64,000 nt of DNA. Origin: Winogradskyella wandonensis. Lineage in GTDB: Bacteria; Bacteroidota; Bacteroidia; Flavobacteriales; Flavobacteriaceae. A model generated the notes under the pieces. That model did not search any database. It worked only from the letters and a program-made list of their open reading frames with translations, and was not told the DNA's origin. The stretch spans positions 558,001-622,000 of the forward strand of contig NZ_SMGI01000001.1 of the NCBI RefSeq assembly GCF_004346845.1. The letters are read 5' to 3'. The position numbers were made by a program, and so were the translations under genes. Of the stretch, positions 4,753 through 51,173 are shown in pieces (positions within the stretch are counted from its first letter, which is position 1; every line of letters starts with the position of its first letter).

Positions 4753-4782
4753 TGTCAGCTTGAGCGCAGTCGAAAGGTCTTT
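4753..4782. repeat. dispersed intergenic repeat, family A copy 1
   Basis: A 23-base stretch at 4760-4782 region, beginning CTTGAGCGCAGTCGAAAGG, is identical to one at 12273-12295, each preceded closely by TGTCA. It lies between panB and the next gene. I recall this word as a frequent intergenic repeat in Flavobacteriaceae, but that rests on memory, not on a search. Confidence 0.7.
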
Positions 4783-12214: not shown

Positions 12215-12234
12215 TTATTATGCATGCATAATAA
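12215..12234. promoter_or_regulatory. 20-base perfect palindrome in the promoter of the nitronate monooxygenase-like gene
   Basis: TTATTATGCA followed by TGCATAATAA is a perfect 20-base palindrome. It starts 3 bases after the stop of the methyltransferase and ends 9 bases before a TATATTTG -7 box (12244-12251), so it covers the -33 region. A closely similar palindrome lies at 23184-23201. It probably binds a dimeric repressor or activator. Confidence 0.6.
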
Positions 12235-12243
12235 AATTTAATT

Positions 12244-12251
12244 TATATTTG
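12244..12251 (+). promoter_or_regulatory. -7 element TATATTTG
   Basis: The sequence matches TAnnTTTG and is the only such box between the methyltransferase stop and the ATG at 12355; the leader would be about 100 bases and contains a family A repeat. Confidence 0.5.
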
Positions 12252-12266
12252 TAAATAAATTAACTC

Positions 12267-12295
12267 TGTCACCTTGAGCGCAGTCGAAAGGTCTT
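12267..12295. repeat. dispersed intergenic repeat, family A copy 2
   Basis: TGTCACCTTGAGCGCAGTCG and the next nine bases match the copy at 4753-4782. It lies in the 5' leader of the following gene. Confidence 0.7.
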
Positions 12296-12354: not shown

Positions 12355-13302
12355 ATGCAAACAAAACTTACCCAATTACTCAACATAAAATACCCAATAA
12401 TCCAAGCACCTATGTTTTTAGTTTCTAACGTAGCTATGGTAACAGAAGCTATGAATGCAGGTATTGCAGGTTGTATTCCAGCTTTAAATTATAGAACATT
12501 AGAAGAGTTAAGAGCAGCGATAAAAGAGTTACATGCTAACAAGGTTGAAGGCGGTTCATTTGGATTTAATTTAATTGTAAATAAATCTAACGTAAAGTAT
12601 AAAGGGCAATTAGAAGTCCTATGCGAAGAAGGTTGCGACTTTATCATTACATCATTAGGAAGCCCAGAGGAAACCATTAAACAAGCACACAAAGCTGGAA
12701 TTAAAGTATTTTGTGATGTAGTAGATTTAAAATTTGCTAAAAAGGTAGAAGGTTTAGGTGCAGATGCAGCCATTGCTGTTAATAACGAAGCTGGTGGTCA
12801 CCGCGGTAATATGACGCCAGAAGAGTTAACAGGATTACTAAGTAAAGAATTGTCCATTCCTGTGATTTCTGCAGGCGGTGTAGGTTGTAAAGCAGATATT
12901 GATAAAATGTTAAGTTACGGCGCGGAAGGTGTTTCCGTTGGTAGCCCATTTATAGCTTCAATAGAGGCAGGAGTAACTGACGAGTACAAGCAAGCCTGTG
13001 TAGATTACGGCGCAGACGATATTGTAATGACAGAGCGCATTTCTGGTACACCGTGTACGGTGATTAATACACCTTATGTTCAGAAAATAGGAACTAAGCA
13101 AACTTGGCTAGAATCTGTTTTAAATAAAAACCGAAAACTCAAAAAATGGGTGAAGATGATACGGTTTTCAATTGGTATGAAAGCCACAGAAAAAGCTGCC
13201 AAGAAAGCGACTTACAAAACCGTTTGGGTGGCTGGACCAAGTATAGAGCATACTAAGGAAATACTTCCTGTAAAAGATATTGTGGCTAAGCTTATTAACT
13301 AA
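12355..13302 (+). CDS. NAD(P)H-dependent flavin oxidoreductase, nitronate monooxygenase family
   Basis: The 315-residue TIM-barrel protein has the family start YPIIQAPMFLVSNVAMVTEAMNAG, then EAGGHRG (the region with the conserved His) and ISAGGVG followed by AEGVSVGSPFIA for FMN phosphate binding. Family members oxidise alkyl nitronates or act as FMN-dependent quinone or enoyl reductases; the true substrate is unknown. A palindromic operator (12215-12234) suggests regulated expression. A small CTCAC-TTCC-GTGAG hairpin lies in the leader at 12333-12346. Confidence 0.87.
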   Translation: MQTKLTQLLNIKYPIIQAPMFLVSNVAMVTEAMNAGIAGCIPALNYRTLEELRAAIKELHANKVEGGSFGFNLIVNKSNVKYKGQLEVLCEEGCDFIITSLGSPEETIKQAHKAGIKVFCDVVDLKFAKKVEGLGADAAIAVNNEAGGHRGNMTPEELTGLLSKELSIPVISAGGVGCKADIDKMLSYGAEGVSVGSPFIASIEAGVTDEYKQACVDYGADDIVMTERISGTPCTVINTPYVQKIGTKQTWLESVLNKNRKLKKWVKMIRFSIGMKATEKAAKKATYKTVWVAGPSIEHTKEILPVKDIVAKLIN

Positions 13303-21923: not shown

Positions 21924-22754
21924 ATGATACATTTAGGCGAATACAATACACTTACAATTCTTAGAGATACAGAACCTGGTTTGTTTCTTGGTGATGGTGA
22001 AGAGAACGAAATTTTACTACCAAACAGGTACGTTCCAGAGACTTTTGAAATTGGTGACCAAATTGAAGTTTTTGCATACTTAGATAACGAAGAACGACCT
22101 GTAGCTACTACAGATAAGCCCTATATAAAAAAGGGTGATTTTGCATTACTGCGTTGTAACCAAGTAACTAAGTTTGGTGCTTTTTTGGATTGGGGATTGG
22201 TAAAGGAACTATTTTGCCCATTTAAAGAACAAGCCTTTAAAATGAAATCAGGTGGCTGGTATCTAGTACATTGCTATTTAGACGAAGAAACAGAGCGTTT
22301 AGTAGCATCTAGTAAAACCAATCGATTTTTAGACAACAAAGAATTAACAGTAGAGCGTTACGACGAAGTAGATTTAATTGTATCGCATCCATCAGAAATA
22401 GGGATGAATGTTATTGTTAATAAGCGCCACCTCGGCTTAGTCTTTAAAGATGAAATTTTTAAAGACATAAGCGTTGGAGACAGGTTAAAGGGCACCGTTA
22501 AAAAGATTAGACCTGGAAACAAGTTAGATATTTCCTTAAGTCAGATAGGCTATAGAAATATAGAGCCCAATGCTCAATTTATTTTGACAGAATTGGGGGA
22601 TAATGGGGGATTTCTGCCACTAAATGATAAATCTTCGCCTGCTGATATTAAAGATGTACTCCAAATGAGTAAAAAAAGCTTTAAAAAAGCAGTGGGCTCA
22701 TTATATAAAGAACGTAAGATTGAAATTAAAGACGACGGTATTTATCTTAAATAG
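21924..22754 (+). CDS. S1-domain RNA-binding protein, CvfB/YitL-like
   Basis: The 276-residue protein has the CvfB order: an N-terminal S1-like domain (YVPETFEIGDQIEVFAYLDNEERPVATT), a second S1 (LRCNQVTKFGAFLDWGLVKELFCPF), a third S1 (ISVGDRLKGTVKKIRPGNKLDISL), and a C-terminal winged helix (SKKSFKKAVGSLYKERKIEI). The family binds RNA and affects virulence regulation in Staphylococcus; its role here is unknown. It ends convergently, overlapping the next gene by 8 bases. Confidence 0.88.
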   Translation: MIHLGEYNTLTILRDTEPGLFLGDGEENEILLPNRYVPETFEIGDQIEVFAYLDNEERPVATTDKPYIKKGDFALLRCNQVTKFGAFLDWGLVKELFCPFKEQAFKMKSGGWYLVHCYLDEETERLVASSKTNRFLDNKELTVERYDEVDLIVSHPSEIGMNVIVNKRHLGLVFKDEIFKDISVGDRLKGTVKKIRPGNKLDISLSQIGYRNIEPNAQFILTELGDNGGFLPLNDKSSPADIKDVLQMSKKSFKKAVGSLYKERKIEIKDDGIYLK

Positions 22755-23157
22755 CCGTTTCTAAACTTTTTTCAACCCATTGCATCGCATCTTCAAGTTT
22801 TTTGAAGATTTGCCTGTTGTACTTAAAAAATCGATTTTCAACTTCGAAAACACCGCGACCAAAAAGAGAATCACATACAACTGCGTACGCTTTTAAGTTG
22901 GGAAAGCAATTATTAAACTGTTCAGAATTACTTAAATCGATGGAGTAATTGTTTATCCTGTTACTAATTACACCAAATGGTCTATTATTAAAATGTGAGT
23001 TTATAAGTATGGCAGATTCTCTGAAGTTTTTCATGTCGATATGAACACCTTCATTAAATTCACTCACTACATATTTTTCAAAAAAATAAAGTTCACCAAT
23101 TTTTACCTCTTGGTAATCTAATAGAGTAGGTGTGTTATTGTATTCAGTTATAGACAT
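22747..23157 (-). CDS. hypothetical STAS/SpoIIAA-like protein
   Basis: The 136-residue protein has no signal peptide. The pattern of strands and helices (ESAILINSHFNNRPFGVISNRINNYSID, then LKAYAVVCDS, then FKKLEDAMQWVE) fits the STAS-like SpoIIAA group common in Flavobacteriaceae, of unknown function. Its promoter has a -7 box TAATTTTG (minus strand, 23178-23185) that overlaps a 18-base palindrome, so it is probably regulated by the same kind of factor as the gene at 12355. Confidence 0.6.
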   Translation of the reverse strand: MSITEYNNTPTLLDYQEVKIGELYFFEKYVVSEFNEGVHIDMKNFRESAILINSHFNNRPFGVISNRINNYSIDLSNSEQFNNCFPNLKAYAVVCDSLFGRGVFEVENRFFKYNRQIFKKLEDAMQWVEKSLETAI

Positions 23158-23177: not shown

Positions 23178-23185
23178 CAAAATTA
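23178..23185 (-). promoter_or_regulatory. -7 element TAATTTTG of the STAS-like gene
   Basis: It matches TAnnTTTG on the minus strand, 20 bases ahead of the start at 23157, and shares its first two bases with the palindrome at 23184-23201. Confidence 0.5.
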
Positions 23186-23201
23186 CTATGCAAGCATAGT
23201 A
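23184..23201. promoter_or_regulatory. 18-base palindrome TACTATGC-AA-GCATAGTA
   Basis: Both 8-base arms are perfect. The core TATGC-N2-GCATA is the same as in the palindrome at 12215-12234, and the position just upstream of a -7 box is also the same, suggesting one shared regulator. Confidence 0.6.
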
Positions 23202-23452: not shown

Positions 23453-23460
23453 TATTTTTG
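23453..23460 (+). promoter_or_regulatory. -7 element TATTTTTG before menB
   Basis: It fits TAnnTTTG and lies 25 bases before the menB ATG. Confidence 0.45.
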
Positions 23461-50980: not shown

Positions 50981-51173
50981 GTTACTGCCTACATTAGTTA
51001 TATTTTTTTGATAAACTCAACGTTAATTCTTTAAAAAGGGTGAGTTGAAGTTGTAAAACCGTGCTGCTGTTTCATTTATTTGAATCTGGGCAGATTTTTG
51101 AGCAGCTTGTTAGCCCTAAACTTGTTTTTAAGGAGTTTATACAAAACAGAGAACTGATGTAGGCTTTTTTTTT
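50981..51173 (+). ncRNA. ssrS: 6S RNA-like transcript (6S-Flavo type)
   Basis: A long imperfect rod is visible: 13 base pairs between GCCTACATTAGTT (50987-50999) and AACTGATGTAGGC (51152-51164, one T-G pair); ATAAACTC (51011-51018) with GAGTTTAT (51133-51140); AGGGT (51037-51041) with GCCCT (51113-51117); GCTGCT (51063-51068) with AGCAGC (51101-51106). The outer stem runs into nine T. The size, rod shape with a large internal bulge and the place after zapA fit 6S RNA, which binds RNA polymerase sigma-A holoenzyme. I did not run a covariance search. Confidence 0.8.

Follow-up and report, generated by a model that had tools for sequence, protein, structure and literature searches.

The two palindromes found in the window (the whole 64-kb stretch of DNA analysed) share the core TATGC-N2-GCATA and are, with high probability judging from sequence comparisons, operators of a single autoregulated MarR-family regulator of fatty-acid metabolism, which would also control a beta-oxidation operon. 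Five lines of sequence-level evidence support this assignment: the operator itself, its conservation, the geometry of the promoters, the identity of the target genes and the joint occurrence of motif and MarR gene. The principal features are collected in Table 1.

Table 1. Coordinates of the predicted operators, promoter boxes and associated genes
Feature	Position	Strand	Basis
Site 1, predicted operator palindrome TTATTATGCATGCATAATAA	12215-12234	.	Sequence; core kept before orthologues of the site-1 target
-7 box TATATTTG of the predicted site-1 promoter	12244-12251	+	Sequence
NMO/FabK-like flavoprotein gene, site-1 target	12355-13302	+	Pfam NMO 149.4 bits, above cut-off
Site-2 target, 136-aa gene	22747-23157	-	Site kept in genus
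-7 box TAATTTTG of the predicted site-2 promoter	23185-23178	-	Sequence
Site 2, predicted operator TACTATGCAAGCATAGTA	23184-23201	.	Arms perfect, AA centre non-palindromic
MarR-family regulator gene, 153 aa	G000:C1:446067-446528, outside the window	-	PF01047

Palindromic sites in the window

Site 1 begins 2 bp past the stop codon of a methyltransferase gene and is the sole perfect palindrome of 20 bp in the window, lying just upstream of a -7 box as the sequence-only reading had described. Palindrome length alone says little, because 100 windows simulated with a first-order Markov model contain on average 0.14 perfect 20-bp palindromes each. The core, by contrast, is present in exactly two copies in the window, whereas shuffled windows average 0.07 and only 1 in 100 has at least two; this bears out the earlier observation. 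The second copy was also found where it had been placed, upstream of a -7 box. The sigma-A -7 box of Bacteroidota has been described as TAnnTTTG, at positions -12 to -5 (PMC9723704), and such a box is present downstream of both window sites. The supposed identity of placement stands insofar as both cores lie just upstream of TAnnTTTG; the offsets from core start to box start differ, being 25 nt at site 1 and 13 nt at site 2. As the site-2 box is on the minus strand, site 2 faces the 136-aa gene and not menB.

At the gathering threshold, the window contains a single Rfam match, a 6S-Flavo RNA at 51015-51138 (+; 93.3 bits, gathering score 85). A plasmid origin was considered for the site-1 region and dropped, no match having been found.

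Distribution of the core in the genome and the MarR-type gene

The genome (2.96 Mb, 13 contigs) contains eight cores versus two matches to the reversed control pattern. Seven are intergenic: one upstream of a KASIII gene, two close together before a MarR-type gene, the two window sites, one in the gap between the pyruvate dehydrogenase E1-beta gene and etfB, and one in that between rpmF and fabH; the remaining core lies within a coding frame. Assuming a non-coding share of 12%, the probability of at least seven of eight cores being intergenic is 3e-6. The sequence-only reading had proposed a small regulon and would have given it up if the motif were not enriched in promoters over coding sequence; in this genome the distribution supports the proposal. 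Besides the exact cores, a TonB-receptor gene has one with a single mismatch 89 bp upstream, and relatives of this gene elsewhere have exact cores. In a search with the 18-bp consensus allowing up to three mismatches, the control pattern proved equally frequent (14 against 12). Five of the consensus matches have 0-2 mismatches (the MarR pair, the two window sites and the etfB site), a figure for the motif side only, the control count coming without a mismatch breakdown.

The only close pair of cores in the genome, 28 bp apart, is located directly upstream of the MarR-type gene, in agreement with the expectation that the regulator, for which MarR-type genes were named as candidates, would carry the motif in its own promoter. 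The product matches the Pfam MarR model (PF01047) with 45.1 bits, above the cut-off of 24.6, and hence has the MarR winged-helix domain; an NCBIfam search gave no model above its cut-off. Its fold model (pLDDT 84) is best matched by SarZ, SlyA and MepR, and a sequence search of solved structures revealed no close relative (best E 4.5e-9). Downstream, on the same strand, follow genes for an 802-aa 3-hydroxyacyl-CoA dehydrogenase/crotonase, a thiolase and an acyl-CoA dehydrogenase, and an AMP-binding, FadD-like gene lies upstream, the identities of the thiolase, acyl-CoA dehydrogenase and FadD-like gene being assigned by sequence reading. The dehydrogenase gene follows the MarR gene in 80 of 80 named loci, and the ligase gene precedes it in 75 of the 80.

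Conservation of the core

Of 60 genomes examined from the family, 55 have a MarR orthologue, and the exact core precedes it in all 30 best loci and in 24 of 25 further genomes (54/55), the exception having one mismatch. All of the best 80 named MarR loci likewise carry an exact core, 23 of them two; the closest locus among these 80, at 99% identity, is that of Winogradskyella jejuensis. At the sequence level, the promoter of the regulator thus contains a palindromic operator of its own. The association extends beyond the family: a draw of 296 genomes from across the phylum gave an orthologue in 50 (E 1e-35), and of the 20 orthologues outside the family, 14 were preceded by an exact core, four by a core with one mismatch and two by none. 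When the orthologue precedes the dehydrogenase gene, a core with at most one mismatch was found in 17 of 17 such cases outside the family. A contig-edge locus that holds a core (L419) was scored as the single miss in the count of 29/30 from this draw. By comparison, paralogous MarR genes had an exact core in 0 of 10 cases, the best match having two mismatches.

Could the two sites be chance palindromes, or an RNA or terminator element following the methyltransferase gene? The AT-richness of the genome, the proximity of site 1 to a stop codon and the fact that perfect 20-bp palindromes are not very rare lend this idea some appeal, but we regard it as almost certainly wrong: the near-fixed distances before -7 boxes are conserved across many genera, no further core turns up in the 493,644 bp that surround the 80 named MarR loci, and neither site has an Rfam match at the gathering threshold.

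Background matches to the core do occur. Across the 55 genomes that have the MarR gene, 325 cores stand against 129 control matches, so that approximately 40% of the cores may be background; the five genomes without the gene contain 5 versus 8. Genome by genome, among those with the MarR gene, the motif exceeds the control in 47, equals it in six and falls below it in two. In a sample of 61 loci drawn from the matches listed, 21 cores lie within an open frame of at least 150 aa, consistent with a chance background.

Target genes

Before etfB, three sets of genomes gave an exact core in 29 of 30, 8 of 14 and 14 of 15 cases. Sorted by presence of the MarR gene, 51 of the 55 genomes that have it carry the etfB site (all except G020, G033, G041 and G052), versus none of four that lack it (Fisher p 1.5e-4, the genomes not being independent); the co-loss of site and MarR gene concerns four genomes, of which two are less than 90% complete. 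In genome G015 (84% complete), MarR and etfB were both undetected, yet a core precedes the NMO gene and another lies in the KASIII locus. This genome, together with the indirect nature of our assignment of binding to MarR, would suit a different regulator that binds the palindrome and has the MarR gene merely as one of its targets. Such an arrangement is improbable in light of the near-universal presence of the core at MarR's own promoter, the disappearance of the etfB site from genomes without the MarR gene, and the lack of the core at the paralogous MarR genes.

Of the 26 orthologues of the site-1 gene that could be evaluated (27 loci examined, contig-edge L103 dropped), 21 are preceded by the core, and in all 21 a TAnnTTTG box follows 8-40 nt after the core start. 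The site is missing from the other five, including G009 and G047, despite the presence of the MarR gene in these two. The distance from core start to the gene match is 38-57 bp in 17 of 20 other NMO loci and 136 bp in the window. The product scored below the cut-off of the FabK model. Between site 1 and the gene lies one copy of a 22-base repeat, CACCTTGAGCGCAGTCGAAAGG (12270-12291, +), the other copy being at 4756-4777 (+); these two window copies, which differ by one mismatch, compare with 0 copies expected, and the leader of most relatives is shorter at this point.

At E 0.001, neither Pfam nor NCBIfam gave a match for the 136-aa product of the site-2 gene. In the genus, a core precedes 14 of 30 homologues (30 of 31 matching genomes), at an identical distance in the four closest; across the family it precedes two of 20 evaluable ones, own gene counted (21 of 30 family loci entered, contig-edge L116 dropped). 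Site 2 is therefore conserved mainly inside the genus. The gene family reached up to six copies per genome among the family genomes searched. As an alternative target, menB was ruled out: a core lies within 500 bp upstream of one of 28 evaluable orthologues (30 loci examined, contig-edge L177 and L192 dropped), and menB has a nearer TAnnTTTG box of its own at 23453. The two window genes had been called unrelated; leaving aside the site-2 gene, the targets are linked by acyl-CoA and lipid metabolism.

KASIII orthologues are preceded by a core in eight of 28 cases and lack it in 20 (30 loci examined; contig-edge L200 and L222 dropped although L222 holds a core). The further targets come from the 61-locus sample and are themselves a sample: cores lie before genes for TonB receptors (7) and fabH (4), and single ones before genes for a FadL/OmpP1 family protein, a thioesterase, a pyruvate carboxylase-like protein and a 2,4-dienoyl-CoA reductase-like SDR scoring below the cut-off of that model. 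The four sampled fabH loci and that of the own genome (L008:1501-1512; L069, L075, L244, L246) have their core 160-230 bp upstream of the gene; in the own genome it falls between rpmF and the terminator-like hairpin of rpmF. The same regulator may thus control fatty-acid synthesis as well.

Promoter geometry and proposed mechanism

TAnnTTTG is present in 51 of 54 MarR promoters of the family, and the box starts 23-24 nt past the core start in 49 of these 54 loci and in 76 of the 80 named ones. At etfB, TAnnTTTG was found in just three of 43 promoters, most carrying TAACTTCG-like boxes (e.g. L138), and the looser TAnnTTnG starts 30-38 nt past the core start in 50 of 51 promoters with the core. 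With the box placed at -12 to -5, the centre of the operator is computed to be near -30 at marR, between about -26 and -32 at most NMO promoters, at -20 at site 2 and at -38 to -42 at etfB. The placement at the first three fits blocking of RNA polymerase; etfB may be either repressed or activated. Because the operator-to-box distance varies among genes (about 23, 20, 13 and 34), blocking may not follow a single simple mode.

We infer that MarR binds the sites, that it acts by repressing and not by activating, and what its ligand is. Most likely, a MarR-type dimer would bind an extended operator approximating TAYTATGCRYGCATARTA. It would cover roughly -40 to -20 at the MarR and site-1 promoters, thereby blocking RNA polymerase, and roughly -28 to -11 at site 2. 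The regulator would thus control its own gene together with the beta-oxidation operon that it heads. Release would be triggered by long-chain acyl-CoA or another fatty-acid signal, acyl-CoA being suggested by the target genes, whereupon beta-oxidation, the electron transfer flavoprotein and auxiliary genes, including the NMO/FabK-like gene, would be switched on jointly. On this reading, the regulator is probably a repressor whose release depends on a ligand of the acyl-CoA type.

The same MarR protein might instead act mainly as an activator, or in both ways depending on position, with etfB activated and its own promoter and the NMO gene repressed. The etfB promoters are in keeping with this, their boxes lying some ten nt further from the core than at marR and the operator being centred near -40. 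An operator over the -33 region or right before the -7 box is typical of repression, and this is what is seen elsewhere: it overlaps the -33 region at marR and NMO and occupies the space immediately before the -7 box at site 2. We therefore consider predominant or position-dependent activation unlikely and favour repression. A wider, tentative extension, possible though not our expectation, is that fatty-acid metabolism in flavobacteria, and in other Bacteroidota as well, is governed by a single, so far undescribed acyl-CoA sensor of the MarR type, repressing beta-oxidation, NMO/FabK-like and uptake genes, activating others such as etfBA via a shifted operator, and touching fabH and pyruvate dehydrogenase. 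If true, such a sensor would balance the burning of fat against its synthesis with no FadR involved.

Comparison with known systems

In Proteobacteria, beta-oxidation is regulated by FadR, of the GntR family, and PsrA, of the TetR family. The task, switching of fatty-acid breakdown, is the same, whereas the protein is different: Pfam gives just MarR and related winged-helix models here, and no GntR or TetR domain. In the open-licence PMC literature, as distinct from subscription papers and regulon databases, we found no description of this regulon or motif and no regulator of fatty-acid breakdown for flavobacteria. The beta-oxidation genes of F. psychrophilum were reported to be up-regulated by fish mucus and plasma (PMC9723704); no regulator is named for the response, and the main text of that paper does not mention MarR. 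A regulator of the kind proposed here could explain it. The present analysis provides a candidate protein, operator, promoter geometry and target list for flavobacterial fatty-acid control, and ties the site-2 gene and the NMO/FabK-like enzyme to the same proposed control.

Proteins of the MarR family bind DNA as dimers and under ligand control. Within the family, SarZ, SlyA, MepR and other solved proteins share the fold, at 15-24% identity among the 50 matches listed. The nearest known system in working style is FabT, described as the MarR-family repressor of fatty-acid synthesis in Enterococcus, Streptococcus and Lactococcus (PMC9083066; PMC13046290). FabT ranks 46th in the fold search, with 19% identity in the alignment. 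A further trait of FabT is that acyl-ACP strengthens its binding to DNA. Because the operon here serves beta-oxidation, whereas that of FabT serves synthesis, the regulator does not belong with FabT. As described in the same sources, however, FabT resembles it in belonging to the MarR family, heading its own lipid operon and having palindromes in several promoters, including its own.
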